A stretch of DNA of 64,000 bases from Haliotis asinina (Eukaryota; Mollusca; Gastropoda; Lepetellida; Haliotidae). The number at the start of each line of letters is the position of its first letter. Within the stretch, counting starts at the first letter, position 1. The stretch lies in assembly GCF_037392515.1 (NCBI RefSeq), contig NC_090281.1, forward strand, positions 45,670,645 to 45,734,644, read 5' to 3'. The notes under the pieces were generated by a model that ran no database searches, had not been told where the DNA came from, and was given only the letters and a program-made list of their open reading frames with translations. This document shows positions 36,301 through 55,400 of this stretch, piece by piece. The position numbers and the translations under genes are program-made.

Positions 36301-36454
36301 AATGTATCCATTAGCCAGTGGTGATACCTCAGTACTGGAGTAATTTGTGATTAGTGTAAATTCACTATAAGTCTTCTGGGAAGGTTTTAGCAAACAAAAG
36401 CCACAAAACCCTTTCCAATCCATAAGAAATGTCTGCTAAAAGCAGTCAAACTGA

Positions 36455-36710
36455 CGGTGGGCCCTGTCGGAGTGGGATAGGCACTTGTTTTAGTAACAGG
36501 GGGGTGACCGGTTTTGTTCTAAGTGAACTCATCACACCATTCTGCATTAGCTGTGCAGCCCTTTATATACTCTGTGTGTGTGGCTGTTGTGTGATGTCAC
36601 AGTGGGCAAGTGTTGATGATTGACGTTATGACGTCAGCAACCATTGTGTGTGTTTGGCAGTGGTTCAACTGCCGGCAGGGTTCTGCCGGTGTCGCTGTTA
36701 TTTGGTAGCC
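36455..36710 (-). repeat. Penelope-array spacer, type 1
   Basis: Homologous to 45940-46260: shared TGGGATAGGCACT..., GTGCAGCCCTTTATATACTC, and GGCAGTGGTTCAACTGC. Contains TGACGTCA at 36629-36636. Lies downstream (minus strand) of a zinc-finger ORF in both copies. Confidence 0.75.
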
Positions 36711-37039
36711 CTATGTTTTTGAAGGCGGAGTTATGGAAAGCAGGTGGCTTGAATGTGTAAGTATACTCGATGATGCTCGGCACGTGTATTAATATTGTTA
36801 TAAAGACTGGCCGATATATACATCGAAAAAGGGTGTATATTTTGTATGTTAATATGGTATTGTAATAAAGTATTACAGTGGTGCTTTGTTTCGTTGTTTG
36901 TGGGAAGTAAACGAGTGGAGGCCTACCGGTTTGATAGACTCGGGGGCCCCTCCTTAAAGTATAAGGAGGAGCCGAAATCACACAAATGCGGTTAAAATGA
37001 CAGAGTTTAATCATGTATGGTGACTTATGTTTATTTAAG

Positions 37040-37801
37040 TCAGAGTGATATACATACTGTGGACGAGAAATGTCTGGTCAGGCCAAAGTGGACAGCTTGG
37101 AATGATTGGTAATCATTGTTACCAATGCCACAGTTTGTTTTGCCAGCTTGTGTTATTACATAGACGGCTTGGATGTGAGTTTTTTGGCAATTGAGGCTGG
37201 TGGTAGTACTTCCTAGTTTGGTTGTGGGTGGGCGTTCTTCCTGCGTGGGTGACTCCAAAGATCCTCCCGGCATTGTGCTCGGTACACTGGCCATGGCTCC
37301 GTGACTAGATCCTCTATGGTGAGCTGTGGATCCTCCCAGTTGGTGAAGGGTGGAACGGGGTATGGGCCCATAGTAGATGGAGTCAAATGGCTCAAGTTGC
37401 CAGTGACGGTTTGGCGTAAAGTGGGTTACTCTAGGTACTACTATGGTGGGTGTACTGCTGACGGCGGCTGGCTGTGCAGTGGTCGGGGCCCTTTTCACTG
37501 CAGTAGTTCCTCTGTTGTGAGTGGTTGTGACCATGGTTAGATCCACGAAGGTGTTGGTGTTATCCGACGTGTATTGTTGATGCTTTTGGCGAAAATGTTT
37601 CAGCCAATCGTCTTTGCGTTTGTAGACCTTACTACAGATGTGGCATTCAAATCGGTTGTTGCCATGTTTAGACCTCAGATGCCTCATGAGACTGTCTTTT
37701 CTGGAAAATGTTCCTTCACACAGATGGCAGCTGAAGGTAGACATCGTTAGATTGCTTCCAATCGTTGCTGGAAACGTTTTAGACTCGGCGGATGACGTCA
37801 T
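37040..37801 (-). CDS. C2H2 zinc-finger ORF (copy a) of the Penelope-like array
   Basis: An uninterrupted 253-codon frame. Residues about 22-75 form two fingers, both C-x2-C-x12-H-x4-H: CHLCEGTFSRKD...HLRSKH and CHICSKVYKRKDDW...HFRQKH. The rest is Thr/Pro/Ser-rich with no second domain. The start codon is embedded in TGACGTCA (37793-37800), giving MTSSAE. Three related, more damaged ORFs lie at about 42.1, 46.5 and 48.0 kb, always next to Penelope pieces and the same spacers, so I take this as an element gene (possible ORF1, nucleic-acid binding by inference) rather than a host transcription factor. Confidence 0.75.
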   Translation of the reverse strand: MTSSAESKTFPATIGSNLTMSTFSCHLCEGTFSRKDSLMRHLRSKHGNNRFECHICSKVYKRKDDWLKHFRQKHQQYTSDNTNTFVDLTMVTTTHNRGTTAVKRAPTTAQPAAVSSTPTIVVPRVTHFTPNRHWQLEPFDSIYYGPIPRSTLHQLGGSTAHHRGSSHGAMASVPSTMPGGSLESPTQEERPPTTKLGSTTTSLNCQKTHIQAVYVITQAGKTNCGIGNNDYQSFQAVHFGLTRHFSSTVCISL

Positions 37802-37869
37802 GGAGGGGCCACGTCATAGTGACTGTGGGTGCCATGTGTGTCTACTAAATAGTGGCTTAGGTATCAGAA

Positions 37870-37945
37870 CAGATACAAAGATAAATAAGACTAGGGGGAT
37901 ACCTTAGCCGACGATGTTATCATTGAGGCTTTGCGGGGCAAACGT
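37870..37945 (-). mobile_element. 3' end of a Penelope-like element, minus strand
   Basis: Minus-strand reading ends SLNDNIVG then stop, the C-terminus seen in the other copies, followed by GTATCCCCCTAGTCTT. It abuts a plus-strand copy, head to head. Confidence 0.6.
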
Positions 37946-38640
37946 GTTGTTTGCAATTTCAACCCAATGAACATGGAGCTCAATGCCATTATCTGGAAGC
38001 GATGGCATCTGCTATCCGGATCAGAAATATGCCAAAAAGTGTTAAACACTCCCCACATTTGGGCCTACAGGAGGAACAAAACCCTGAAGGATTCTAGCGC
38101 TTCACTAGAATACCCCAAGAACACGCCACAAGTCAGTGGCCGGGTAGTCACATTCCTTGACGACCCATGCAACTAACAAAACTGCAAAATCTGCATCGTA
38201 ATCAGACACTTTTTACAGTACAGTATCTGGTGTCAAATACCGTAAACGACAGTATAAATGCACTAACAAAAATGTGGTCTACCTACTCACCTGCAAAAAA
38301 TGCAACAAACAATATGTAGGGAAAACCAAAAGATGTTTCAAAACGAGACTGAATGAACACTATGCTGTCATCACACACCACACAGATAAACCTGTTGCAA
38401 TTCACTTCATCTCGGAAAAACATGGCAAATCCGATCTCACTTACGAGATCATTGCACAACTCAGAGAGGACCCTGAGCTTGCTAGCACCACTCAAAAGAG
38501 GAGATCACTCGAACTAAAGTGGATATTTAGACTCCACATGTTCACCCCGGAAGGCCTCAGTGATAAGATAGTCGGCTAAGGTATCTCCCTAGTCTTATTT
38601 ATCTCTAAAAGCAGAGTCAATTGTACAATTGTGACTGACT
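37946..38640 (+). mobile_element. Penelope-like element 3' part (linker and GIY-YIG nuclease)
   Basis: Plus-strand copy. It begins in the linker (WHLLSGSEICQK, YRRNKTLKD), runs to FLDDPCN, then in another frame NVVYLLTCKKCNKQYVGKTK, RLNEHY and LELKWIFRLH, ending GLSDKIVG. YLLTC...QYVG is the GIY-YIG core of endonuclease-bearing Penelope elements. Frame changes make it inactive. Its right end (CTAAGGTATCTCCCTAGTC) is the inverse of the left neighbour, giving a 60-bp inverted flank. Confidence 0.85.
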
Positions 38641-38654
38641 TTATTAGTAGAATA

Positions 38655-40134
38655 CAGTAATATTCATTTATAACGGACTCAAAGGGACTGTTGTTTTCAG
38701 TTCGTTGTAAGCAAAGTTCGTTCTAAGCAATTTGGTAATGTTCGTGAATATTCAGAAATTACCAAGAATTGTCACAACGTCACTGGTATCAGACAAGATC
38801 ATGTTCACACAGAAAATAAAATAAGACAAAACCAACAAACATATGATTGTCATGGATCATTCAATTCATCATCAATCTTGTCTTTTATTGTGCATCTTTA
38901 GCAAAATCGGTAATTTTAGTTTGAACACAAGCAGACATTTGAATAGATTCCAGAGTTTGCGTACAATCATTAATATTATCAAAGACAGACAACGGAACAT
39001 TTGGTCTTGACAAGAAAAAGTCTCTGACATGTTTTAAACATGTTGCTGCCTCCGCTGTTGTCTTCACTTCCAGTTCTGTCACTGTCTCACTGTCATCTTC
39101 ATCATTTATCAACTGTTTCATTGTCTTTCTTCACTGCCGTAACTATATCTTCATCTGTAAGTCATTCTGTGGTCACAGTGTTTTCATCTGCATTCAAGAA
39201 ATGTTCGAGTGTCACCTCTGCCGGTACATTAGCAATGTCAGTCACTTCTCCCCACATTCCACACAAGTTTGTAAGGGGTATGTCATATTCATCCAATTCA
39301 GAATCATCCATGTCATTTTCATCTGGTAACTTGAACCCTCCCTTTAGAAAGCAGTTGACAATGCATTGAGAGGTCACATGACACCAGGCTCGGTGGATGT
39401 TAGTGATTGCAGACAGTAATGTCGCTTCGTATTTCTCCTTCTTGTCGTAGGCACTAATCAGATCTGTCATCATCTGTTTTCTATAGTTACTTTTAAGTGA
39501 TGCAGTGATCCCTCGAAACTCGTTAGCTTTTGCAAGAAGTATCGGGCCGCTTGCTGGAATATTCTCACTCCACACAGACCATTCAAACAGAGCTTTCTCG
39601 ACATCTTCAAAATTGGAAACTCGAATTCTCCTCCGACTGCTTCCATATTCGGCTGACTGCAACAGCTTGGATGATCTGGTATTTTGTGTCGAGATCTAGA
39701 GCTTTTTGTTTCCGTGACAAGCCTTCCATGCTGACTTGAAAGAATGACTTCCCAGATCCCTATTTATGCCTTGACAATGTTAACAAGATTAACAAGATTA
39801 AATAAATGATAAAAGTTCACAGGTAAGTTTATTTTATTATCCCCTTGATCCCATGTGAGGAAGCCTGTTTTTTTTCACAAGCAAATTGGTGACATGTGAG
39901 ATGACACGCAAGTGGATTCGGATCAGCTGTTCATTGTAAACAAGTCAATCAATGCGTGAAATTGCACAGAAGGACCTGTCAATTTGTTTGTTGTAACAGA
40001 TAATTCGTACTCTCAGTGTTCGTTGTATACGGTAGTTAATTCATAACAATACTATAGGAAAGCAGTCGGGACTTCTGAATTTGTTGTAACCGTCAATTCG
40101 TTGTAAGCGTGTACGTTATAAGTGAACTTTACTG
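38655..40134 (-). mobile_element. Tigger/pogo transposon, internally deleted
   Basis: Ends CAGTAATATTCATTTATAAC and its inverse near 40110-40134, flanked by TA at both sides. Minus strand: N-terminus MEGLSRKQKALDLDTKYQII (pogo helix-turn-helix), then SNFEDVEKALFEWSVWSENI (CENP-B type DNA-binding helix), then directly ASLKSNYRKQMMTDLISAYD and IHRAWCHVTSQCIVNCFLKG, which belong after the DDE core. The catalytic middle is deleted and there are frame changes. Inserted into the Penelope array. Confidence 0.88.
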
Positions 40135-40204
40135 TATATTTCTTTTAGCAGTATTAGAGCTGTACCATGTTGCTTGTAAACAAATCAAGTCTGGATCAAA
40201 AGTA

Positions 40205-41090
40205 GAGAAGACTAACAGGATACCTTATCCAACTATTTTGTCGTTAAGGCCTTGTGGGGCAAACGTGTGGTGTCTGAATATCCACCTAAGTTCGAGGGAT
40301 CTCCTCTTTTGGGTGGTGCTGGCAAGTTCAGGGTCTTCTCTGAGTTGTGTGATGATCTCATAGGTGAGATCTGATTTTGCCATGCTTTTCTAAATTGAAA
40401 TGAATCGCAACAGATTTGTCTCTGTTGTGAGTGATGTCGGCAAAGTGTTCATTCAGCCTCGTTTTGAAGCATCATTTAGTTTCCCCTACATATTGTTTTT
40501 TGCAATTTTGGCAGGTAAGCAGATAAACCACATTTTTGTTGGTGCATCTGTATTGTCGTTTGTGGTATTTGACACCAGACACTGTATAGTGGAAAGTGTC
40601 TGATTGATTTAATACGATGCAGATTTTGCAGTTGTGTTTATCACACAGATCGCCACCTGGCCACTGATCTGTGGCTTGTTCTAGGTGATCCTTCAGGGTT
40701 TTGTTTCTCCTGTAGGCCACAATGTGGGGTGTTTTGAGCACTTTTTAGCATATTTCAGATCCTGATAGCAAATGTCATCGCTTTATGATAATGGCGTTGA
40801 GCTCCATTGAGCTCCCTATGTTTAAGGGTTAAAGTCGCATACAAAGACCATTGCCTTTTGTTTGGTCTTGGACGGTGTTTTATGGGGTGTCAGGAGGGTG
40901 CTCCTGTCGTTGCCGTCGGCCTTGTGTTTGTTCTGTTGTATTAGTCTCTTAGGATATCCCCGTTTTAGGTAAAAATTTATGAGGTTGAGACTGTCTCTTT
41001 CATACTCCTCAGTGGAGGAGCAGATGCATTTGAGTCTGAGGAACTGACTGTACGCGCCAGGGAAAAAGGTTGAGACCAGAGTAGGCAAGG
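40205..41090 (-). mobile_element. Penelope-like element 3' half (thumb, linker, GIY-YIG)
   Basis: From right to left: RT thumb (AYSQFLRLKCICSSTEEYE, FYLKRGYPKRLIQQNK), then linker (PHIVAYRRNKTLKDHLE), Cys-rich CDKHNCKIC, then VVYLLTCQNCKKQYVGETK and a C-terminal piece with SDLTYEIITQLREDPEL and LNDKIVG. A few frame changes separate the pieces. The palm/finger domains are missing; a zinc-finger-type spacer lies immediately upstream. Confidence 0.85.
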
Positions 41091-41099
41091 TGGGGCTGT

Positions 41100-41900
41100 G
41101 ATGCTAGCATGAGGGTGATTAGTTTTGTCCAGACAGGACTCATCAGACGGAGAAGCTAGCAGTGACTGGGTGTATATACTGTAAGAGAGCTGGAGGTGGT
41201 GGCCGGGGGTCCAGTGGTGGGACCGATGGTGTGGCCATGGGATACTGGAATTGTCTGTGGCTACCGGTGGCGGCCGGTGGTTTTACCGGAGCATTCCGGT
41301 GGTTGCCAGTGGCTGCCATTGGAATGATGATGGAGCCATGGTATGCCGATGAGTGTCGGCAGTGTATCCAGTGGGAGGGATGTGTTCCTAAAGGGGCAAC
41401 TAATACACACTTATGGTAGTATGAAGCCTCTCATTGTTGAGAACAGTGTGCGGGTCTGTATATGTGGAGGGTTACCTAAGGGTAAATGTAGAATTAACAT
41501 TTGGGAAGGAGTAGGTGACTTGGTTTCTGGTACTAATTGTATCAGTATAGAATCTAGAATGTTCCACCTCAGGGTGGCGCATTTCCATGCTGACATGTCT
41601 AAGAGATACTTATACATTGGGTCGACACACCAAGTAGTAACACAAATTATATATGAAACAATATAGAATTTGTATAAGTGATGTGCTTCACCTGCTGGTG
41701 AGGGACCAGACACTCTATGATTTGAGTAGGGGCCTCAGTAAATTATAAACACGTATGATGGTTGGGGTATATATAGTATAATCCGAGTGGAAATAACAAG
41801 TGTAGTCCATATTAGTTGAACCGGGAAGCACGACATGAAGGTGAATATAGGCATAGAATCACTCAGTCACAGCTGGCATCTTAGTTGTCAGGTAGGGTGG
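41100..41900 (-). repeat. Penelope-array spacer, type 2
   Basis: Homologous to 46790-47400: both have GTGATGCTAGCA, a run of CCGGTGG-like repeats and ATATAGAATTTGTAT...CTGGTGAGGGACC or its variant. No protein recognised. Confidence 0.65.
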
Positions 41901-41944
41901 TGAGTCTCATTTAGAAGCATCGCGGTGGATAAGAGGTCCTGATG

Positions 41945-42320
41945 CTATGCCAGTGGATTCATTAAACATCTATACTCGGTGAGGATATCATCCAGGGTAT
42001 TTCTTATTGCCGGGTTGGCATAGGGGTTGCCAGGTACGGTGTTGTATCCTAGAGCAATGGAAGTTATTGTCCGTGTTTGAGACAGGCTTTGTGTTGTAGC
42101 TAAGTCTGCGTCGTGAGGTAGGTCTGATGAACGTGTTTTGTTCACTTGTGAACTTATGTTTGGTGGAAAGATGTTTTTGACAGTCGTCAGGGCGGTGGTA
42201 CGACTTCCTGCATATTGTGCACTCAAAAGCCCTGTTACCATGATTAGCCCAGGTGTGTGTGAGTAATGGGACAAGCTTGCGTCGCAGATGGTGCATGTAT
42301 AGTGTTGTTCTGCCATAGTA
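41945..42320 (-). pseudogene. C2H2 zinc-finger ORF, copy b (broken)
   Basis: The start region reads MAEQHYTCTICDAS; the frame then shifts, and the second finger CTICRKSYHRPDD...HLSTKH (C-x2-C-x12-H-x4-H) is in the next frame. Closely related in layout to copy d at about 48 kb, with which it shares flanks on both sides. Confidence 0.7.
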
Positions 42321-42540
42321 GACGGTGGTTACTGTTGAAGTGACCGGTGTGTCTAGTATAAATAAGTAAGGGTATGATGTCAGTGACTATGATGTCATAA
42401 ACGGGCCGGTGTTGGCGGTGTTAGAGTGACGTGTGGTGACGTCACAATATAGATACCTGACTGGTAGTGAACCTGATATTACTGTGAATGAGTTTTTACA
42501 GTCGCCTGAGATTTGTCCACTAAATTGTGGTTAGGAATTC

Positions 42541-43250
42541 TCAGAAAAAGACAAAACTGGTATGAAAAACTGGGTGAATTTCAACCAACAATTTTATGTT
42601 TGAGACCTTGTTGTCTGAATATGTGGAGCTCAAAAATCCACTAAAGTTCCATGGAGTGGAGGAGTTTGGTGGTGGTCTCCCGCTCAGGGTCTGCCTTGAC
42701 CTGAGTGATGATTGTGTACCGTAGATCACTCTCTTGGTGATTGGGGAGATTAAAATGATGAGTGACAGGTTTGTCTCTCTTTTGTGTAATATCTGCAAAG
42801 TGTTCAGAAAGCCTGATTCTGAAAGCCCTTTTAGTTTCACCTACATATTGTTTGCAAGTTAGCAGGTACACTACATTGCGGCTTTGATGGTGTTCACGGG
42901 TCGGGTATTTGCAGCCCATGTGGGTACTGTAGAAGTACCGTGAGGAGTTGATATTTCTGCATACTTTGCAGGAATGATTATTACATGGATCGTCAATAAA
43001 TTTGACTATCTGCCCGCGACCTGCTGGGGGAGTGGAATCGGGTGGGTGATGGCGGCTCTGACGAGAATGTCTTTCAGAGTTTTGTTGCGTCGGAAGGCAG
43101 TAATAGGTGGTGAAGGGAAAATCTGGTTGCAGATTTCTGAACCACTGAGTAGGTGCCAGTGTTCCTGGATAGTGCGTTTGAGCTCTAGGTTTATGGGGTT
43201 ATATAGAGGATATTTTGTTAATGTTGTCAAATAACATATATATTTCATCG
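42541..43250 (-). mobile_element. Penelope-like linker and GIY-YIG part
   Basis: HWHLLSGSEICNQIF and AFRRNKTLKDILVRAA, then FIDDPCNNHSCKVC, NVVYLLTCKQYVGETKRAF, FADITQKRDKPV and a C-terminal part near 42641. KCxKQYVG lacks three residues compared with the other copies. It shares its 3' flank (GTGACGTCACAAT) with the piece at 48.4 kb. Confidence 0.85.
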
Positions 43251-43355
43251 AGTGGTCTGATAAAGCTGATATGTTCACGCAGCCACTCATGAACATATCA
43301 GCTTTGTCAGACCACTCGATGAAATGTACATGTTATTTGACAACATTAACAAAAC
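43212..43355. repeat. Hairpin-forming inverted repeat, about 65-bp arms
   Basis: Left arm 43212-43277, right arm 43290-43355, nearly identical in inverse orientation (TTTCATCGAGTGGTCTGA / TCAGACCACTCGATGAAA), 12-base loop. The left arm is continuous with the Penelope linker frame. Confidence 0.85.
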
Positions 43356-43985
43356 ATTCTATTTATTATACCTTCATCATAGTTTGTAAATGATCGAGAC
43401 ATCAAGTAAGTCTGCATTTTGTTACGCAACCTAACTACAGTCTAGTCCTTGAGAAATGTGTACCTACACCAAATAGTTTGCTGAAAAGCAATTATGATAG
43501 AATAATTAATGTCATGTTTCCCCTTTTTGTAGTCATATTTTGTGAAAAACAAAGTCACATAAACAGTAAATGTATAACTTTAACAAAAAATACACATCAG
43601 TATTTGTCTGGAGATGCAATCAGTGCGCGTATTAGTATACACAAACTATGATTGAACACGAAGCGAGGAATCAGTCCGACAAAAGCATCAAAATAACAAC
43701 TTTGAAGTAACGAACAGTGAACGTAGCATGTGGAATTCAGGCAGTTATCCACCTAGGTATGTTCATCATGTTTATTGAAGCATGTCACTTTTGTCTGATG
43801 TCATATTGTTCGCACGGGATGCAACGGCCTCTAGCCCAACACGCACTATTCCAAGCAAAAGTGATATTCTACTCAGAGAAATAACATGTTATTCTACTCA
43901 GTGAAAATATCATTTTTATTTTCATCAGTATTTACAGTATTTCACTCTTAAAAATATAATAAAGTTGCAAACCAGCACTTGTTTC
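43356..43985. other. No gene seen
   Basis: AT-rich filler between Penelope pieces; contains two short repeats of ATTCTACTCAGTGAAA. Confidence 0.35.
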
Positions 43986-43989
43986 ACAT

Positions 43990-44200
43990 TTGAGACTGGT
44001 GCTTTAGTCCTGTATTGGAGAAGGTCTCTCCTAGATTTGAAGTCTGACTTTAGTTTGTTTTGCTGTATAATGGATTGGGTGTACCCACGTTTTAGGTAAT
44101 ACCTGATGAAATTGAGGCTGTATTTCTCATATTCCGCCTCGGAACAGATTCTCCTCAGGCGGAGGAACTTGCTATAAGGGCCTTTGGTTTTGACATGAGG
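43990..44200 (-). mobile_element. Penelope-like RT thumb fragment
   Basis: Minus strand reads YSKFLRLRRICSEAEYEKYS and YYLKRGYTQSIIQQNKLK, the same segment as in the 41.0-kb piece. Confidence 0.75.
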
Positions 44201-44535
44201 TGTACAGCAAATTGTAAACCAAAAGTCACTGTGTTCTGTAATCTGATAGGTTGAAAAACATGATCAAATGGTATTAGAGTCCCGGAAACTGCAAGACTAT
44301 TCACTGCCTATTGACCTCGCAAACAATTGTTTTGTTGAGTCATCAACAGTGGTGACGTCATTCAAATCATATTGTGATGTAAAGTCAGAATGACGTCAAA
44401 AATGAGCAACTCCAGACGCTGCCATGGGAACCAGCTGAAACGGCCTGCTGATGACACTTCACTGCTGTACCCGTACTCGATGTAAACGAGTGCAGACAGT
44501 TAAACCCTTTGGTTTACTTTTGTATTTACAATGTC

Positions 44536-44655
44536 GATAAACATCATGTGTGGGCCAATTTCCAGGTGTTATTGAGTATTTGAAGCACGGGAATGTTTCA
44601 TTTTAAACCTCCGTGCTTCAAATACCTGGAAATTGGCAAACACATGATGTTTATC
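44536..44655. repeat. Imperfect hairpin, about 45-bp arms
   Basis: GATAAACATCATGTG, CCAATTTCCAGG and TATTTGAAGCACGG on the left are mirrored at 44611-44655. The left arm carries a 10-base insertion; the loop is 20 bases. Next to the 3' edge of the RT fragment. Confidence 0.75.
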
Positions 44656-45760
44656 CACTAATAGGAGTGTGCATCTGTGGGTTTACAGTAGAGAGAAAAC
44701 TCCAGGGTTTGGAGTTTGTTTTCATTTGAAACCCAGGTGTCTGGAAATGCTGCCTTTCGACGCGAGAATTCCGGGTAAATTTGATGGTAGGGTGTGCAGA
44801 GCTAAGATAGTTGAGAAATTTCTCGAGTCTGTCTGTGCCTAGTGTCCAGATCAAAAAGATGTCGTCAATGAATCTGACATACAAGTCCGGTTGATCTGGA
44901 TAAATGGCAAGAAGTGATTCTTCTAGTTCACCCATGAAAATATTTGCATATGATGGAGCAAGTTTAGTCATCATAGCGGTGTGGCCTACTTGTAGGTAGT
45001 TGGTGCTGTTGAACACGAAATTGTTCCTCAGTAGGACCAGTTTAAGGAGGTTGAGGAGACTGGTTGGCTTAATTAACTGGTTAAGTTTGTGTCTCCTAAT
45101 CGCTTTGGCAACTGCTCTCATACCTTCCCCATTGGGGATGTTGGTGTAAAAGGAGGTGACATCCGTAATTAATTGAGTGTCTTTATTATTGTCGCATGTG
45201 TAGGACTCCAACTTTTGAATAAAGTGAGTCGTGTCTCTAATGTAGCTAAGATATTGGGGAACGAACTCTTTGATATGTTCGTCAATGAAACTGCTAATTT
45301 TTTCAGTGACTGAATTACTACTGCTGAATCCTTTTCTGCTTTTTTAATAATGATTTCATTATTATTTTTGAAGGCAGAGAGTGCAGTCATATCATCATGG
45401 GTGAGGTTGTGATGTTTGTGATGTGTCCTTCAGTCTGAAGAAATCACTGGTGACCGCTTTGAAGAATGATTCCAGACTCTGATCATTACTATATGGCAGG
45501 TTACAGTTGCTTTTTTGTCCAAACATTTTATCTAGGGGTAAGATGGTGGTGGTCTCTTCTACATCACTGAAGTAGTGAGTGAGTTTCAATTTTCTAAAAT
45601 GCTGTAAGGTCAGTGAATGGCTTTTGTTGGAGCATGTGAGACTAAGGCTAAATGTTAAGCCTTTAGATAAGAGGCTTAATTCCAGCTTAGTTAATTGATA
45701 ATCAGGAAGATTAACTCTGTTGGTAAGTTTCTGAGGTATTGTTTGCATCTGAATTATTGT
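44651..45760 (-). mobile_element. Penelope-like reverse transcriptase, N-terminal and palm part
   Basis: From right to left: an N-terminal region (LPDYQLTKLELSLLSKGLTF; HYFSDVEETTT), the conserved NNNEIIIKKAEKDSAVVIQ, then after an internal deletion of about 100 residues the palm: LITDVTSFYTNIPNGEG, MMTKLAPSYANIFMGELEES and the catalytic box VRFIDDIFLIWTLG (IDD, equivalent to xDD). The thumb is missing here but present at 44.0-44.2 kb. The palm frame is open for 186 codons; the whole is inactive. Confidence 0.88.
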
Positions 45761-45939
45761 TTATATTCAGGGTGCTGATTGTATCACAGATTGAGCTGTT
45801 ACTGTGATTCAGACTGCGGGTGAGCAGGGAGATGGCTTGTTTTAGGTTATTCCTGTTGCCAAAGGTTTATGATAATGTTTCCCTGTCGGCGACTTGGTCC
45901 AGGTGGGGGGTGACGTTTCAGTCCGATGGGGAAGAAAGT

Positions 45940-46260
45940 AAAACAGACGGCCCCATCGGAGTTGGATAGGCACTGTATATGAGTAGCAGTGGGGGTGGCC
46001 GGTTTCGTTTGATATGCACTCATCAGACCGTTCTGCAGTGGCTGTGCAGCGCTTTATATATTCTGTATGCACCGGTGGGCAGTGGTTACCAATAAATAAT
46101 GACATCACAGTAAGCAGGTGATGGCAGTCGATGTTTATGATGTCATTAACCATTTGTGCATATTGGCAGTGGTTCAACTGCTGGCGGAGTTGCACTGGTG
46201 CCACTGGCGATCCGTGTTGCCACTGATTATTTGGTGCAAAGTGAATTACCTTGTCCGCTG
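45940..46260 (-). repeat. Penelope-array spacer, type 1, second copy
   Basis: Matches 36455-36710. It lies between zinc-finger copy c (upstream) and the RT N-terminus (downstream), which is the evidence for the order zinc-finger ORF, spacer, RT. Confidence 0.75.
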
Positions 46261-46369
46261 TGGAACTGGTGGGTCAATTGTTATGGGTGACTTGTGAGGA
46301 CTTCACCATGTCCGTAACCTGAATGCAGTCCACAAAGTTATTAGGATTGTCCGTGGTATCTTTTTAGTG

Positions 46370-46590
46370 ATTGTGCCAAAAGTGTTTCAGCCAATCGTCA
46401 TGGTGTTTGTGTGTTTTGGTGCAAACTCAGCACTCATGCTGGCTATTGCCATGCATTGTGCTGATATGCCGAGTGAGGGTATCTTTTCTTGTGAACTTAA
46501 CAGAGCACATTGGACATGTAAGTTTTGACATCTTGAAGATTTGTTCCAACTGTCAATGGAATCGTTAGACTTGGCAGATGACATCATAGG
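46370..46590 (-). pseudogene. C2H2 zinc-finger ORF, copy c (broken)
   Basis: Minus strand starts MMSSAKS, like MTSSAES of copy a. First finger intact in frame: CPMCSVKFTRKDT...HISTMH. In the second finger a TGA replaces the residue after the first Cys, followed by VCTKTHKHHDDWLKHF. Confidence 0.75.
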
Positions 46591-46789
46591 TTATCACGTC
46601 ATAGTGGGGCTGCGTCAAGTCTGGATCAGTTAATCCACTCATTGTCACCATGCGATGTGATGACAGGTGATGTGTTTATAAATCACTCTGAAATTATGAT
46701 GATTCAAGGTGGTAGTAAAAAGGCAAATGTATCGTGCCCCACCAGTTGCAACCAACATGAACATATGCTAAGTCAACAGGAGAAGAGAA

Positions 46790-47400
46790 AGAGACCGGAG
46801 TGGGCGAGGAGGGGCTGTGATGCTAGCACTAAGGTGACTAGTTTCGAGGTGGGTCTGTTGTTTTTGTCAGGGAACAGTGTAAACATCCCTTACTGCTGGT
46901 GAAGTGTGGGTGGCAGTCTGTGGTTCAACAGTGATTCCGGTGGAGACCAGTGTTACCGGTGGTGTGCCTGGTGTTTGGCGGTGGCTATCAGTAGAGTGCC
47001 GGTGGTAGCCGGTGGCATGCCGGCAGGACCTAAAGTGGGCATTAAAAAGGGGGAAAACGGTGACGCTATAGCGGTAACCTCAAGCTAAACATTGTGGTTG
47101 ACAATGTGGCAGCTGAATGTATGGAGTTATAGGCACAAATGTTAGAATAAACATTGGAAGTATAAGGTCTTGTAACAAGACCAAGTGTGTATACAAATTT
47201 ATAAAAAAGGATATAGAATTTGTATTTCGATGTCCCTCACTGGCTAGTGAGGGACCTGGGGCCCCAACATTCTGATTTGAATGTGGGGCCGGGCATAACA
47301 ACATACAGTGAATTTGAGAGTATATAGACTTATATTCAGATAGAATATAAATGATAACCCAAATGAGAGTGAATTCAGATTACAATCTGCAGCTTTGCAG
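46790..47400 (-). repeat. Penelope-array spacer, type 2, second copy
   Basis: Matches 41100-41900 in order: GTGATGCTAGCACTAAGGTG, CCGGTGG-rich tract, ATATAGAATTTGTATTTCG and CTAGTGAGGGACCTGG. Confidence 0.65.
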
Positions 47401-47417
47401 GCTGAATAAATGCGCAT

Positions 47418-48180
47418 TTACTCATTAAGAGTAATGTCAGTTTGGTTTGCTGGGGTGGTGAGAGTTAAAAACATAGACGTAGATAGCAGGTCCTGGTGCT
47501 GTGCATTCGGGTTAACTAGGCATCTGTATTCTTGAAGGATTTCGTCCCAAGTTTTTCCTGATAGCCAGGTTGGTATCGGGATTCCGGTGAACTGTGTTTG
47601 GTTCAATGGGAGACGGCATCCTGTGGGATAGATTGGAGAACTTGCCAGGGTTCTGTGATTAGAAACGATGGATGAGTAGCAGTTGACCAGTTTGATAACG
47701 GTGGGCTTGGCACATTTCCTCGATATAACATAAATGGGCAAGGTTTGTGTCCATAAATGTAGGTAGTTATCTGGTAGGGTAGAGTGTTGGGAGGTGGGGT
47801 CCAGTCGGTAGGAGGATGTTTTCCATGTTCACTTTAATGATGCGTGGGTCCAATGGTGGGTCATTGGCATCACATTCAAGGGGAATGGTAACTGTGGCAA
47901 AGTCAATTAGGCTGTCCGCCACTAAGAAGAAGTCTTCTACAGTGGAAATGGGCGGGTTGTTCCGTTTTTGCCACGTAGTACATTTAATGAATGCTTTGGG
48001 TTGAACAGACAGGTGTTTAGTATAGATGTGCTTCCGGCAGTCTTCCTGACGGTTAGGTATGATCTGTTGCAGATCATACATAGGAAGGCAGTGTCACCAT
48101 GGTTAGTTCTCTGGTGTCTAAGTAAGGCATCTTTACGCTTAAACTTAGTGGCGTTTGTTGGCCATATTGCGGGGTGGATT
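47418..48180 (-). pseudogene. C2H2 zinc-finger ORF, copy d (broken)
   Basis: The first finger has lost its cysteines but keeps KFKRKDALLRHQRTNHG; the second begins CMICNRSYLTV, and after a frame change continues DCRKHIYTKH. Two long frames follow (to 47767 and 47418-47741). Same flanks as copy b. Confidence 0.65.
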
Positions 48181-48412
48181 GTTTTGCCTGACCGTTGTGT
48201 CTAGTGTAGGGGAGTGATAAGTATGACGTCACAAAGGCCAGTGTGGCCGGTGTCAGGGTGGCGTGGCGTGACGTCACAATGTGGATACCTGGCTTGGTAT
48301 GGAAGCTGACATTTAACTAAAATGAGTGTAAGGTCGCCCCAGATTAGTCCACGAAATTGTGGTTATAATTCTCAGAAAGAGACAAAGATAGGTATGAAAA
48401 ACGGGGTGAATT

Positions 48413-48630
48413 TCAACCAACAATTTTATCGTTGAGAGCTTGCAGACTGAATGTGTGGAGCTCGAAAATCCACTTAAGTTCTGTGGAGCATCGGAGGTCA
48501 GTGGTGGTCTCCCGCTCAGGGTGTGCCTTGAGTTGAGTGATGATAGTGTATCTATCGTAAGTCACTCTTGCGGTGATTTGGGAGATTAAAATGGTGAGCA
48601 ACGGGTTTGTCTCTCAGAGTATACTAATAT
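48413..48630 (-). mobile_element. Penelope-like GIY-YIG C-terminal fragment
   Basis: RYTIITQLKAHPERETTTDL, ELKWIFELHTFS and LNDKIVG then stop. 5' part lost where the minisatellite begins. Confidence 0.75.
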
Positions 48631-49402: not shown

Positions 49403-52400
49403 AGGTTAGGTTAGGTAGTGGAGCATGCCTCTGGCGTCGTGGCCCTTGCATGTACCCTCTCGTTTCTCCTCTTGATTATATTGATGAATTGAGCCCATTC
49501 ATTATTTCTGTTTTCAAGGGCTTCTTTAAGATTGTTGTTGGCTGTTGACCTGATTTCATCATATTCGGGGCATCTGAATAAGATGTGCTCAAGATCTTCC
49601 TCTTCTTGATTACAAAATGTGCAAATGGGGTCAGTTGCCAGATGATATTTGGCTAGATAGCTCTGACAGGGAAAGTGGTTCAGTCGGATTCTAGAGATGG
49701 TAACTTGATCCGTTCTTTTGATATTTTTGTAGAAAATTCTGTTGGGTTTTTCCTGCAGTTCAAAGTACTTTCGACCTTTGCTGTTATTGAGCCAGATATT
49801 TGACCATTTATCACTAGAGGTTTCCTTCACTCTGCATTTCAAACTAGGTAGAGATGACATAGGTTTTAGCAGAGGGCCACACTCAGATGCTTGCTTGGCA
49901 AGTTCGTCAGCCTTTTCGTTCCCAATAATCCCTACATGGCTTGGGATCCATTGTAGGCAGATGACAGTTTTCAGGGTTTGTAGCAGACTGTTGATGGCTT
50001 TGGTTTGATGGTAGTACTCAGTAGGTTTGTATGACAACAGAGTGTGCAGGGATGATAAAGAGTCCGTCAGGATGGTGTAAGGACCGGAGTTGGAAAGATC
50101 TTTAATTTCCAGCAAGGCTCTTTCTATTGCTGTAAGTTCTGCACTGAGGATTGAGCAGGGGGTGAGTGGAATGATGACACTACTCTCATCGTCTTGGAGA
50201 TATATGCCTGCCCCAGCTTTTCCATTGTTTGGATCCAGGGAGCCGTCAGTGTAGATCTTTCTGTATTCTGAATATTTAGTCTGGATTAACTCCAAGGCTA
50301 GCATCTTCAACTTGACTGGGTTTTCTGACTTATTGGCTTGTTCTGGAATTGATGTTACTATGGTTGGAGGTTTCCATTGCCATGGTGGTATATCATTCAT
50401 GATTGCTGTTGGAGAGAAGTTGGGGTCTGACCTAGAAGGGAGATAGATGTTTCTTTCCTTGAGTAGCCTGCTGGATCTTGCATAGAAGGAGTTCTTTGCT
50501 TTGTTTTTCTTGAGATGCCCTGGAGAATCTTTTGGAAGGAAGTGATTTTTAATCCTTCTGTTCAGGATAACTGATTCCGAATGGATCTGAAGTGGAGGGA
50601 TGTTTGCTTCTATCTCAAGTGACCCAACTGGCGTGGTTTTCAGAGCACCAACTATGAGACGGAGAGCACAATTTTGTAAGGTTGAAAGTCTTTTCATTCT
50701 CGTTGGGCAGCATGATGACCAGATTTCCATGGCATATGACATCTTACTCCTGATATATGTCAGATAGAATGTTCTTAGGGTGGTAAAATCGGCCCCCCAA
50801 GCTTTTGATGAAATGACCTTCATGAGGTTCAGCCTCTTTAGACAGTCATGATGTAACCGGTCAATATGGGCATTCCATGTGAGTTTAGGGTCGAGTGTTA
50901 GCCCTAGTATTTTCGGATTTTTGTTGTAGCCTATTGACCGACCAGAGATTTGTATACCAAGTTTGTCAAGTGGCAATACATGTTTTCGTTTTCTGGTGAT
51001 GACTGTGTATTCTGTCTTATCTTGGGATATCTTTAATTTCCACTTGGTTGCCCAATTGTTTATTGCTTCCATACATTCATTGGCATGCGTCACAATGTGG
51101 TTGAGATCTTTGTGAGTGATATATATGGAGCCATCATCAGCATATGTGACTTGTCCCAGTGGCTTTGAAACTACAGATGGTAGATCCTGCATCATGATGT
51201 TAAAAAGGATTGGGCTGATTATTGAACCCTGGGGTGTTCCAGTGTTGATGCTGATTAAGTCTGAATACTCATTACCTACTTTGGTTTGGATGTGTCTTTC
51301 GCTGAGGAAGCTTCTGATGAATTTAAGAAGTCTGCCACTTATTCCCAGTTCAGCTGCCTTTAAGGTGACTCCATCCCACCACACCTTATCAAATGCACCT
51401 TCTAGATCGATCAGGATTATAACCGTGTATTCATTCCTGCTTAATCCTTGATGACATTGTTCAGTTAGCTGCATGAGTGCATCTATGGTACCTGATTTTG
51501 GGCGGAAGCCACACTGAGATTTGTGAAAGATCTTTTCTGTCTCCAATTTCCATGTTAATCGTCTGGTGATCATCTTTTCCATGAGTTTACCTAGGCAGGA
51601 GGTGAGGGCAATAGGACGGTATGATTTAATGGCTAGTTTATCTTTGTTTGGTTTTAGAAGAGGAATTACTTGGCTAGTCTTCCATGCTGATGGATAAGTG
51701 CCAGAGTCCCAAATCTCATTAAACAGATTGAGTATGATGTCTTTTGCATTTGGTGGTAGGTCCATCAGCATCTGGTTGTGAATTTTATCAGGACCAGCAG
51801 CTTTTAGTGTCAGTTCTTTTATGGCAAGGTCCATTTCATGTCTCGTGAAAGGTTGGTCCTCCTCAGCCTCAGAAGAATACAGCAAATCTAGGTTGTCAGC
51901 AATATGTTGTTCACTATCAGAAAAGGTACTTTTGTTGAAATCCGTGTCAATGGAGGAACACTTGTTGGCATAGTGATTTCCAAATAACTGCGCCTTTTCT
52001 TTCGTGTCAGTGATCATTACACCATCATGGAATAGGGCTGGTTGACTTGAGTTGGTGTTGCCGTTGATTGCTTTTATTTTCCTCCAGATAGTATGGGAAG
52101 GAGTGTCTCTTGTAAGAGTTGAGATGAAATTTCTCCAACTAGTGGTTTTGGCGATCTTGATATCCCTCTTTACTTTGGCTTCTAGACATTTGTATGCTAT
52201 TTTGTCCCTCAAGTTGCGGGTGCGTTTCCAAGTTCTTCTGGCTCTTCTTCTAGCCTTTCTGTCCTTGCTTATACTTTCATTCCACCAAGGTGCAGGTGGT
52301 CTCTTGTGAAGTTTGGTTGAAGGATAAGTTTCTTCTGCCACATCAACAATACACTTGGTGATTGATTCCACCTTCTGTTCAACAGATGAGTGTGTTATGA

Positions 52401-52431
52401 TGGCTTGTGTTTCCTCAATCTGGTGTGCTAG
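49403..52431 (-). mobile_element. 5'-truncated LINE inserted in the minisatellite
   Basis: Bounded by a short direct repeat GTTGAAGTT (49394-49402 and 52441-52449, plus a second copy at 52432). The 3' tail reads CCTAACCTAACCTAAC on the minus strand. The two flanks together rebuild one minisatellite unit, so insertion was clean and after the array had formed. Confidence 0.88.
49411..52431 (-). CDS. LINE ORF2 fragment: reverse transcriptase and RNase H
   Basis: One open frame of about 1000 codons running to the truncation point, with no true start codon; the endonuclease domain is missing. Counting from 52371: APWWNESISKDRKARRRARR linker (about 27-46), RT with AAGPDKIHNQML (about 190), QVIPLLKPNKDK, LIDLEGAFDKVWWDG, GTPQGSIISPILFN and the catalytic YADDGS (about 409). 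RNase H follows, with IYTDGSLD (about 710), AELTAIERALLEI, ILTDSLSS and WIPSHVGIIGNEKADELAKQ (about 807). A Cys/His knuckle CTFCNQEEEDLEHILFRC lies near 920. RNase H after RT suggests the I/Nimb group. All catalytic residues seen are intact, unlike most elements here, so it is recent. Confidence 0.9.
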   Translation of the reverse strand, partial: LAHQIEETQAIITHSSVEQKVESITKCIVDVAEETYPSTKLHKRPPAPWWNESISKDRKARRRARRTWKRTRNLRDKIAYKCLEAKVKRDIKIAKTTSWRNFISTLTRDTPSHTIWRKIKAINGNTNSSQPALFHDGVMITDTKEKAQLFGNHYANKCSSIDTDFNKSTFSDSEQHIADNLDLLYSSEAEEDQPFTRHEMDLAIKELTLKAAGPDKIHNQMLMDLPPNAKDIILNLFNEIWDSGTYPSAWKTSQVIPLLKPNKDKLAIKSYRPIALTSCLGKLMEKMITRRLTWKLETEKIFHKSQCGFRPKSGTIDALMQLTEQCHQGLSRNEYTVIILIDLEGAFDKVWWDGVTLKAAELGISGRLLKFIRSFLSERHIQTKVGNEYSDLISINTGTPQGSIISPILFNIMMQDLPSVVSKPLGQVTYADDGSIYITHKDLNHIVTHANECMEAINNWATKWKLKISQDKTEYTVITRKRKHVLPLDKLGIQISGRSIGYNKNPKILGLTLDPKLTWNAHIDRLHHDCLKRLNLMKVISSKAWGADFTTLRTFYLTYIRSKMSYAMEIWSSCCPTRMKRLSTLQNCALRLIVGALKTTPVGSLEIEANIPPLQIHSESVILNRRIKNHFLPKDSPGHLKKNKAKNSFYARSSRLLKERNIYLPSRSDPNFSPTAIMNDIPPWQWKPPTIVTSIPEQANKSENPVKLKMLALELIQTKYSEYRKIYTDGSLDPNNGKAGAGIYLQDDESSVIIPLTPCSILSAELTAIERALLEIKDLSNSGPYTILTDSLSSLHTLLSYKPTEYYHQTKAINSLLQTLKTVICLQWIPSHVGIIGNEKADELAKQASECGPLLKPMSSLPSLKCRVKETSSDKWSNIWLNNSKGRKYFELQEKPNRIFYKNIKRTDQVTISRIRLNHFPCQSYLAKYHLATDPICTFCNQEEEDLEHILFRCPEYDEIRSTANNNLKEALENRNNEWAQFINIIKRRNERVHARATTPEACSTT

Positions 52432-55400
52432 TGTTGAAGTGTTGAAGTTGGATAAGCTCTAGTTTTTGATGATGATGTGACTCATTTTCTTGACAGTAAA
52501 ATTTCTGATTTTCTTGACACTGGGTAAGGTGAGCAATTTGATGATGTTGTGACTCATTTTCTTGGCACAAAGACGTGCTGATTGTCTTGATGTTGGGTAA
52601 GCTGAATAATTTGATGGTGATGTCACTCCTTATGGCAGTGAAACTGCTCATTTTCTTATAGTTGGATAAGTGATTCATTTTCTTTGCAGGAAACTACTGA
52701 TTTTGTTGAAGTTGGATAAGCTCTAGTTTTTGATGATGATGTGACTATTTTCTTGGCAGTAAAACTGCTGATTTTGTTGAAGCTGGGTAAGGTGGGCAAT
52801 TTGATGATGATGTCACTCCTTATGGCAGTGAAACTGCTCATTTTCTTATAGTTGGATAAGTGATTCATTTTCTTTGCAGGAAACTACTGATTTTGTTGAA
52901 GTTGGATAAGCTCTAGTTTTTGATGATGATGTGACTCATTTTCTTGGCAGTAAAATATCTGATTTTCTTGACGCTGGGTAAGGTGAGCAATTTGATGATG
53001 TTGTGACTCATTTTCTTGGCACAAAGACGTGCTGAATTTCTTTATGTTGGGTAAGCTGTATAATTTGATGATGATGTGACTCATTTTCTTAATTAGTAGT
53101 GAAACTACTGATTTTCTTGATGTTGGGTAAGCTGAATAATTTGATGATGATGTCACTCCTTATGGCAGTGAAACTGCTCATTTTCTTATAGTTGGATAAG
53201 TGATTCATTTTCTTTGCAGGAAACTACTGATTTTGTTGAAGTTGGATAAGCTCTAGTTTTTGATGATGATGTGACTCATTTTCTTGGCAGTAAAATATCT
53301 GATTTTCTTGACGCTGGGTAAGGTGAGCAATTTGATGATGTTGTGACTCATTTCCTTGGCACAAAGACGTGCTGAATTTCTTTATGTTGGGTAAGCTGTA
53401 TAATTTGATGATGATGTGACTCATTTTCTTAATTAGTAGTGAAACTACTGATTTTCTTGATGTTGGGTAAGCTGAATAATTTGATGATGATGTCACTCCT
53501 TATGGCAGTGAAACTGCTCATTTTCTTATAGTTGGATAAGTGACTCATTTTCTTTGCAGGAAACTACTGATTTTGTTGAAGTTGGATAAGCTCTAGTTTT
53601 TGATGATGATGTGACTCATTTTCTTGACAGTAAAATTTCTGATTTTCTTGACACTGGGTAAGGTGAGCAATTTGATAATGTTGTGACTCATTTTCTTGGC
53701 ACGTCTTTTTTTTCTTGGCACAAAGACGTGCTGATTGTCTTGATGTTGGGTAAGCTGAATAATTTGATGATGATGTGACTCATTTTCTTAATTAGTAGTG
53801 AAACTACTGATTTTCTTGATGTTGGGTAAGCTGAATAATTTGATGATGATGTCACTCCTTATGGCAGTGAAACTGCTCATTTTCTTATAGTTGGATAAGT
53901 GATTCATTTTCTTTGCAGGAAACTACTGATTTTGTTGAAGTTGGATAAGCTCTGGTTTTTGATGATGATGTGACTCATTTTCTTGTCAGTAAAATTTCTG
54001 ATTTTCTTGACACTGGGTAAGGTGAGCAATTTGGTGATGTTGTGACTCATTTTCTTGGCACAAAGACGTGCTGATTGTCTTGATGTTGGGTAAGCTGAAT
54101 AATTTGATGATGATGTGACTCATTTTCTTAGCAGTGAAACTACTGATTTTCTTGATGTTGGGTAAGCTGAATAATTTGATGATGATGTCACTGATGGCAG
54201 TGAAACTGCTCATTTTCTTATAGTTGGATAAGTGACTCATTTTGTTGAAGTTGGATAAGCTCTAGTTTTTTATGATGATGTGACTCATTTTCTTGGCAGT
54301 AAAATTTCTGATTTTCTTGACACTGGGTAAGGTGAGCAATTTGATGATGTTGTGACTCATTTTCTTAATTAGTAGTGAAACTACTGATTTTCTTGATGTT
54401 GGGTAAGCTGAATAATTTGACGATGATGTCACTGATGGCAGTGAAACTGCTCATTTTCTTATAGTTGGATAAGTGACTCATTTTCTTTGCAGGAAACTAC
54501 TGATTTTGTTGAAGTTGGATAAGCTCTAGTTTTTGATGATGATAATGTGACTATTTTCTTGGCAGTAAAACTGCTGATTTTGTTGAAGCTGGGTAAGGTG
54601 GGCAATTTGATGATGATGTCACTCCTTATGGCAGTGAAACTGCTCATTTTCTTATAGTTGGATAAGTGACTCATTTTCTTTGCAGGAAACTACTGATTTT
54701 GTTGAAGTTGGATAAGCTCTAGTTTTTGATGATGATGTGACTCATTTTCTTGACAGTAAAATTTCTGATTTTCTTGACACTGGGTAAGGTGAGCAATTTG
54801 ATGATGTTGTGACTCATTTTCTTGGCACGTCTTTTTTTTTCTTGGCACAAAGACGTGCTGATTGTCTTGATGTTGGGTAAGCTGAATAATTTGATGATGA
54901 TGTGACTCATTTTCTTAGCAGTGAAACTACTGATTTTCTTGATGTTGGATAAGCTGAATAATTTGATGATGATGTCACTCATTATGGCAGTGAAACTGCT
55001 CATTTTCTTATAGTTGGATAAGTGACTCATTTTCTTTGCAGGAAACTACTGATTTTGTTGAAGTTGGATAAGCTCTGGTTTTTGATGATGATGTGACTAT
55101 TTTCTTGGCAGTAAAACTGCTGATTTTGTTGAAGCTGGGTAAGGTGAGCAATTTGATGATGATGTCACTCATTATGGCAGTGAAACTGCTCATTTTCTTA
55201 TAGTTGGATAAGTGATTCATTTTCTTTGCAGGAAACTACTGATTTTGTTGAAGTTGGATAGGCTATAGTATTTGATGATGATGTGACTCATTTTCTTGTC
55301 AGTAAAATTTCTGATTTTCTTGACGCTGGGTAAGGTGAGCAATTTGATGATGTTGTGACTCATTTTCTTGGCACAAAGATGTGCTGATTGTCTTGACGTT

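Follow-up and report, generated by a model that had tools for sequence, protein, structure and literature searches.

The window analysed here, the whole 64-kb stretch at positions 45670645-45734644 of contig C2 in the 1.14-Gb genome of the abalone Haliotis asinina, contains decayed copies of a Penelope-like element (PLE) together with open reading frames (ORFs) for a C2H2 zinc-finger protein. PLEs are a poorly understood class of eukaryotic retroelements, and the canonical members described have a single ORF; the original prediction for this window was a Penelope-like family with an extra C2H2 ORF. Loci elsewhere in the genome are named below by contig and megabase (Mb) position or by an L-number.

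Four C2H2 ORF copies, a to d, are located at 37.2-37.7, 42.0-42.4, 46.2-46.5 and 47.8-48.1 kb, the places at which they had been predicted; all four lie on the minus strand, and each is disrupted by frameshifts or stops. Copy a (37213-37744, minus) retains two C2H2 fingers (Pfam zf-C2H2 E=1.5e-8, in two stretches), copy b has one whole finger, copy c has one whole finger and a second that is interrupted by a stop, and copy d has finger remnants only. Within the 64 kb, all tblastn matches (E<=1e-4) of eight window queries are confined to 37.2-48.6 kb. The reverse transcriptase (RT) palm matches RVT_1 at E=9.9e-6 with 25.8 bits, which for this decayed fragment is below the Pfam cut-off of 29.6, and shows an FIDD motif by eye; the GIY-YIG endonuclease domain matches PF01541 at E=8e-7, above the Pfam cut-off. 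Copies of the family have two fixed end points, which we call T (about 70 nt past a putative hammerhead ribozyme) and E (25 nt beyond the stop codon of the RT/GIY-YIG ORF). In window coordinates, the features are:

36436-36444, unstranded: target-site duplication (TSD), T side, CTAAAAGCA, from flank comparison
36445-38604, unstranded: single PLE insertion, in which an inverted, minus-strand T arm carrying the ribozyme and C2H2 ORF a meets a plus GIY-YIG arm ending at E
36445-36511, minus: tail beyond the ribozyme core, ending at T, with imperfect inverted repeat GACAGGGCCCACCGTC
36496-36545, minus: predicted minimal type I hammerhead ribozyme, copy a, with core substitutions
36561-36569, minus: TATA box TATATAAAG
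37213-37744, minus: C2H2 ORF copy a, with two fingers, linker and C-terminal motif; frameshifted
37839-37855, minus: conserved box just downstream of E, copy a
38036-38576, plus: GIY-YIG domain of copy a's insertion, whose E end is at 38604
38605-38613, unstranded: TSD, E side
40200-41058, minus: RT C-terminal piece and GIY-YIG, ending approximately at E
41122-41146, minus: putative hammerhead core, b subfamily (copy b), with one core substitution
41945-42386, minus: C2H2 ORF copy b, with one whole finger and the C-terminal motif in a different frame
42514-42530, minus: conserved box just downstream of E, copy b
42584-43198, minus: linker and GIY-YIG, b subfamily, continuing past E into copy b
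43928-45760, minus: RT, with N-terminal part (45398-45760), palm (44654-45343) and C-terminal part (43928-44263)
46002-46026, minus: putative hammerhead core, copy c, with the conserved core kept and stem II mispaired
46217-46537, minus: C2H2 ORF copy c, finger 1 whole and finger 2 with a stop
46777-46844, minus: remnant b-type hammerhead and tail after copy d, from similarity to the copy b tail
47421-48143, minus: C2H2 ORF copy d, with finger remnants (47926-48143) and C-terminal motif (within 47421-47828)
48416-48614, minus: GIY-YIG C-terminus upstream of copy d

In the direction of the C2H2 strand, the unit runs from RT and GIY-YIG to a stop codon and, 25 nt farther on, to E; next come a conserved box, the C2H2 ORF, approximately 0.6 kb of sequence, the TATA box, the hammerhead and the tail, and finally T and the RT start. 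As predicted, copies b and d begin immediately past a GIY-YIG stop, and copy c is separated from an RT N-terminus by the sequence that also follows copy a; this sequence, originally described as a spacer, is indeed shared, but is not a mere spacer, as it consists of a promoter-like box, a predicted hammerhead and a tail. The C2H2 ORF is found between E and the TATA-hammerhead segment in subfamily a and after GIY-YIG in subfamilies b and c. Lying between E and the TATA-hammerhead-tail segment, the gene is therefore inside the block of approximately 1.4 kb from E to T that is equivalent to the pseudo-long terminal repeat (pLTR) of other PLEs. By eye, the start codon directly precedes finger 1 in subfamilies a, b and c, and the distance from start codon to T is 1.28-1.55 kb in most of 15 copies; internal deletions account for shorter distances in window copy c (598 nt) and in C2_49 (839 nt). 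The conserved box past E reads CCACWATTTMGTRGACA or nearly so in subfamilies a and b, with a diverged form in c (by eye), and could be an RT-recognition or RNA-processing signal; a small hairpin was also observed in it. At the other end of the block, a-type copies have about 70 nt in common after the ribozyme, ending with CAGTTTTAC or a close form, after which they diverge (this point being T), and b-type copies have a shared end of their own; in L069 and window copy c, the sequence continues past T into the RT ORF. As a separate observation, seven of the eight TGACGTCA (CRE-like) palindromes of the window, for which base composition predicts about 0.8 per 64 kb, are in the PLE region (36629, 37793, 42437, 44353, 44391, 48224 and 48269); in copy a, one immediately precedes the C2H2 start and another is about 60 nt ahead of the TATA box, and some other copies have them in similar places.

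With regard to the ribozyme, the TATA box begins 34-36 nt ahead of a core, CTGATGAG, that is followed by stem II, GAAAC, 2 nt and GTC, with a helix III of two pairs. Both CTGATGAG and GAAAC are intact in 14 of 21 aligned copies, the rest having one or two changes. Over the 21 copies, 87.9% of the named pair cells are standard, covariation is 0.169 as compared to 0.110 in shuffled alignments, changes on both sides of a pair are found at two stem I pairs and one stem II pair, and three of five pair measures exceed all 500 shuffles. The element thus carries a predicted minimal type I hammerhead ribozyme, variants of which are reported for PLEs in the accessible part of one source (PMC7229834).

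Many copies are arranged head to head, with a minus T arm (tail, ribozyme and C2H2) joined to a plus RT-GIY-YIG arm that ends at E, or as the mirror image. Comparison of the T and E flanks within eight independent a-type composites gave longest exact matches of 10, 14, 5, 7, 14, 9, 14 and 13 nt (the 7-nt case being 13/14 by eye), while 56 mismatched flank pairings, a control that left out three segmental copies, share at most 6 nt. A ninth, C2H2-bearing a-type composite at C7:16.40 Mb, with an E arm of a few dozen bases (by eye), has an 11-nt flank match, and two b-type composites that lack C2H2 have matches of 13 and 14 nt. The C2H2 ORF and an RT/GIY-YIG end are found within one TSD in seven insertions (window copy a, C2:49.7, C7:46.9, C8:66.9, C14:39.8, C1:12.0 and C7:16.4 Mb); other TSD-bounded insertions are cut off before C2H2 (C6:55.7 Mb, L082 and the b-type composites), among them the insertion of about 200 nt in L082, where 14-nt repeats enclose a T arm of 150 nt and about 50 nt that end at E. 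These insertions also bear on the arrangement of the window, for which same-strand alternation of zinc-finger ORFs with RT and GIY-YIG pieces, and hence tandem copies of one unit, had been proposed. The four C2H2 ORFs do share the minus strand, and the proposed cyclic order (C2H2 - spacer - RT - GIY-YIG) stands, but a plain tandem array does not: the GIY-YIG domain at 38036-38576 is on the plus strand and is joined with copy a into a separate, inverted two-arm insertion (36445-38604, TSD CTAAAAGCA). For copy a, this TSD and the inverted arms led us to reject the tandem-unit reading.

Arms may also run past the opposite end. An arm ending at E extends upstream through T and the ribozyme into C2H2 in L069, and arms ending at T cross E in the upstream direction and reach GIY-YIG (C12 and C15_33) or RT (window copy b); the template was therefore likely repeated or circular. 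No clear TSD was found for the single-arm copies C12 and C15_33, and L069 was rejected as a full-length unit, as its upstream end falls within the block, shortly past E, and no TSD could be recognised for it. Twin priming on one linear RNA is not favoured, since both arms carry GIY-YIG in C6:50658985 and RT in C7:64280143, two cases judged by their arm content. No copy of the family with two direct pLTRs was seen.

The alternative that survives best, although we consider it improbable, is that the block from E to T (C2H2, TATA, hammerhead and tail) is a non-autonomous element of its own, which was mobilised in trans by a PLE and recombined with PLE copies. Many T ends without an RT or GIY-YIG match nearby would fit such an element, as would the TSD-bounded insertion in L082, which has no coding capacity. 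By contrast, the E-ending RT/GIY-YIG copies and the T-ending C2H2 copies are arms of the same insertions, the T-ending arms named above cross E into GIY-YIG or RT, and both L069 and window copy c proceed from hammerhead to tail to RT ORF.

Genome-wide searches link the C2H2 ORF to the PLE beyond the window. The copy a protein gave at least 105 matches (150 of 1328 candidates scored), and loci were annotated after dropping matches overlapped over more than half by a better match. PLE parts (RT/GIY-YIG or hammerhead) were found within 1.5 kb of all 26 C2H2 loci at E<=3.3e-9 (22 once four apparent segmental copies are merged), including RT or GIY-YIG at 24; of the other two, C6:71.74 Mb has a hammerhead in that range, with RT slightly farther off at 1.6 kb, and at C7:16.40 Mb only a hammerhead was found. 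Together with the seven single TSD-bounded insertions, this bears out the predicted extra C2H2 ORF, and close C2H2 relatives in this genome do not occur independently of the PLE RT, the outcome on which the predicted link had been said to depend. The copy b protein has RT or GIY-YIG nearby in five of eight fetched matches. Among 54 distinct GIY-YIG C-termini, 14 continue past E into the block by eye and all 14 reach the C2H2 ORF or its finger 1, including two near-identical copies at C7:64.3-64.4 Mb with an internally deleted C2H2 ORF and a readable finger 1; the rest diverge at or near E or gave no clear outcome. An initial figure of 20 continuing copies from a fuzzy E-box script was dropped in favour of the 14, as six end at or near E by eye. 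A search with the a-type T end gave 40 matches, with a C2H2 match upstream, by coordinates, in 15.

These data also speak to a second, somewhat less probable alternative, in which the C2H2 ORF came from another transposon or a host zinc-finger gene that inserted beside PLE copies. C2H2 genes are abundant, and many weaker C2H2 matches either occupy long open frames like those of ordinary zinc-finger genes or belong to a Ty3/Gypsy-like element that has its own two-finger 3' ORF; by coordinates, only four of 42 weaker C2H2 loci (down to about E=1e-4) are near a listed RT, GIY-YIG or T match, and two of the 42 that were fetched are part of the Ty3/Gypsy-like element. Against a foreign insertion stand the association at 26 of 26 close loci, the constant position of the ORF in each subfamily, its co-divergence with GIY-YIG (see below) and the seven places at which C2H2 and RT/GIY-YIG ends share one TSD, which refute it unless they arose by chance. 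The Ty3/Gypsy-like element itself (C5:42.34 Mb and C3:86.60 Mb) has an open frame of 242-252 aa with two C2H2 fingers downstream of pol (L072 3743-4498, minus; L073 2536-3261, plus), and six further C2H2 matches have open frames of the same lengths. We do not claim homology between its 3' ORF and the PLE C2H2 protein, as 41% identity over 45 residues is not clearly above general C2H2 likeness.

The product of the C2H2 gene is approximately 200-240 aa long and comprises two Zif268/CTCF-like fingers, a variable linker and a conserved C-terminus. The best solved relatives of the fingers are CTCF and Zif268 chains, and the fingers are, as judged from sequence, of the DNA-binding kind. By eye, 11 of 18 decayed copies match R-[KR]-D-x-L-x-R exactly in the helix of finger 1, which presumably includes the positions that contact DNA. 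C-terminal motifs, from an alignment of three sequences of decayed copies, are PPFxNW...TEPWxV in a and c and ILxEYR...NPxA in b and d, with a form close to the latter in c; neither of the two C-terminal pieces has a Pfam match. The protein thus most likely binds DNA, at targets or at the element's own block from E to T.

In 14 of 15 aligned copies (the C4_42 row, which is cut off upstream of the fingers, was excluded), the C2H2 frame has a median ratio of nonsynonymous to synonymous divergence (dN/dS) of 0.27, with dN<dS in all 66 pairs for which dS could be calculated; 25 of 91 pairs were saturated. Differences fall on the three codon positions in proportions of 28, 24 and 48% within the ORF and of 32-35% each downstream of it. 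For RT, excluding high-scoring segment pairs (HSPs) below 55% identity and copies of fewer than 80 codons, the median dN/dS is 0.26 and the proportions are 28/21/52% (29 copies; 180 of 406 pairs with usable dS). The C2H2 ORF thus shows purifying selection. In addition, GIY-YIG and C2H2 protein distances are correlated (r=0.59, Mantel p=0.0002; 20 insertions, 185 pairs). Selection and co-divergence together indicate that the gene worked and travelled with the element while the subfamilies split. That the frame is a role-less relic carried passively in the pLTR, as the broken state of all copies seen might suggest, is the least probable explanation of all, given the dN/dS values, which speak against it for the period of subfamily divergence, the excess of third-position differences that tracks the frame, and the finger 1 helix kept exact in most of the decayed copies.

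Overall, we put at roughly 0.86 the probability that an endonuclease-bearing PLE lineage gained, and kept under selection, a second gene, encoding a C2H2 protein, in its pLTR-equivalent block. A number of observations weigh against this interpretation. No intact two-gene unit was found among the copies examined in detail, all of which are decayed, and every TSD-bounded insertion with C2H2 inside is a-type; three of the eight b-type C2H2 matches show no RT or GIY-YIG within 1.5 kb. By coordinates, 25 of the 40 T ends have no C2H2 match upstream, and in five of these that were examined (L006, L068, L083 and two in L082) the T arm starts downstream of the C2H2 ORF. The flank match of the C4 family is only 5 nt and unclear, and one b-type composite is unclear as well. 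Values of dN/dS from different pairs are not independent of each other. HSPs as weak as E=10 entered the Mantel test, for which a single finger also filled both finger positions in copies b and L080 and, in part, in d. For the ribozyme, two of the five pair measures, the number of both-sided pairs and the pair types, were not above shuffles (112 and 145 of 500), related sequences can beat shuffles without structure, Rfam gave no hammerhead at threshold and one sub-threshold match, and four single-sequence folds were no better than shuffles, with z-scores that are not notable.

The cycle of such an element may be pictured as follows. Transcription would start near the TATA box, and the template would be a multimeric or circular RNA. 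Reverse transcription may start internally, at or near T, as in Anolis Poseidon, and the other arm would start or end at E, which might be another start site, the end of an RNA or a site of processing. The C2H2 protein would bind DNA, and either direct the particle to its target or regulate the promoter of the element itself. The ribozyme may have a role in this cycle as well; since the accessible part of the Anolis study reports insertion in vitro without need of ribozyme cleavage (PMC11167929), this role can only be inferred here. More tentatively, and as a possibility we would not favour at present, the pLTR-encoded zinc-finger protein could serve as a second sequence-specific DNA-binding module that, by binding a short site in the block from E to T or genomic targets, directs an insertion with two ends, the cleaved strands both being extended, from T and E as two different fixed start points, on multimeric or circular, ribozyme-processed RNA.

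Several other sequences were observed in or next to PLE copies. A 93-nt inverted repeat (window 43185-43382), 85% complementary and inside a PLE copy, has an Rfam mir-9256 match below threshold and is probably a miniature inverted-repeat transposable element, and a fragment of a DDE_1 / Tc5-type DNA transposon (38.9-39.7 kb, minus) adjoins the PLE insertion. A 1015-codon open frame (49411-52458, minus), in which sequence of the non-LTR reverse transcriptase and RNase H-like kinds was noted by eye, is flanked on both sides by 72-nt satellite arrays (48.8-49.4 and 52.5-56.1 kb). At C4:44.70 Mb (L049 358-1502), RT residues 141-175 of a PLE copy are present in about 11 tandem repeats with a period of 106 nt.

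The family shares with PLEs an RT with an RVT_1 core, a GIY-YIG domain C-terminal to RT in many loci, two fixed ends, inverted arms, a tail, short TSDs and a predicted minimal type I hammerhead; it departs from the single ORF and short non-coding pLTR that are typical of described canonical members, though not required of the class, by its extra C2H2 ORF and 1.4-kb block. The RT motif MxTKxAPSYANxFMG may resemble that of the Neptune-like clade. R2-type non-LTR elements have N-terminal C2H2 fingers, which are used for target recognition. The fingers described here are likewise C-x2-C-x12-H-x4-H fingers in a retroelement; unlike those of R2, which are fused to a different RT and endonuclease in the same ORF, they are encoded by a separate ORF beside the RT/GIY-YIG ORF of a PLE.

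Among PLEs, the order of RT and C-terminal GIY-YIG and the hammerhead near the ORF start are like those of Penelope/Poseidon, as described for PAc (Poseidon) of Anolis in the accessible part of that study, where RT starts internally, genomic insertions end on RT start sites and the protein cuts and extends both strands in vitro (PMC11167929). The pLTR, tail, inverted pLTR arm and short TSDs are like those of Adineta Pen, for which the accessible text reports 193-218 bp pLTRs with a TATA box, a tail, an inverted pLTR, 8-10 bp TSDs and a single ORF (PMC3846280); unlike Pen, the abalone element has a block of approximately 1.4 kb that encodes a C2H2 protein. The second end at E, 25 nt past the ORF stop, also differs from canonical PLEs as far as the accessible sources describe them. 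Two fixed ends in TSD-bounded insertions make the copying of PLE RNA at both strands a directly testable question. A canonical PLE of the same genome, L084, has identical 164-bp direct repeats (pLTRs) and no C2H2 motif in the one copy examined, which suggests that the C2H2 gene is not essential to PLE transposition in general.

The C2H2 gene thus sits where described PLE relatives carry no gene, and selection appears to have kept it while the family diversified; a conserved DNA-binding gene in the pLTR is a candidate targeting or self-regulation factor for this lineage. No C2H2 ORF in a PLE was found in the literature searched with zinc-finger terms, a coverage that many subscription papers fall outside. 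As reported in the accessible parts of two studies, Athena/Terminons carry DEDDy, GDSL, coiled-coil, transmembrane and Rep ORFs and Neptune-like PLEs of fish and molluscs carry a GDSL esterase (PMC5408684, PMC6431247). The abalone element is like them in having an accessory ORF of a type that is also present in LTR elements and unlike them in that this ORF is C2H2, the word 'zinc' being absent from both papers (PMC5408684, PMC6431247). With a C2H2 ORF both in a PLE and, downstream of pol, in an LTR element, the abalone genome offers a parallel to rotifers and their shared ORF3 types. While PLE accessory ORFs such as those for GDSL esterase and DEDDy were already known, C2H2 is an addition to the accessory ORF types that are seen in both PLE and LTR elements.

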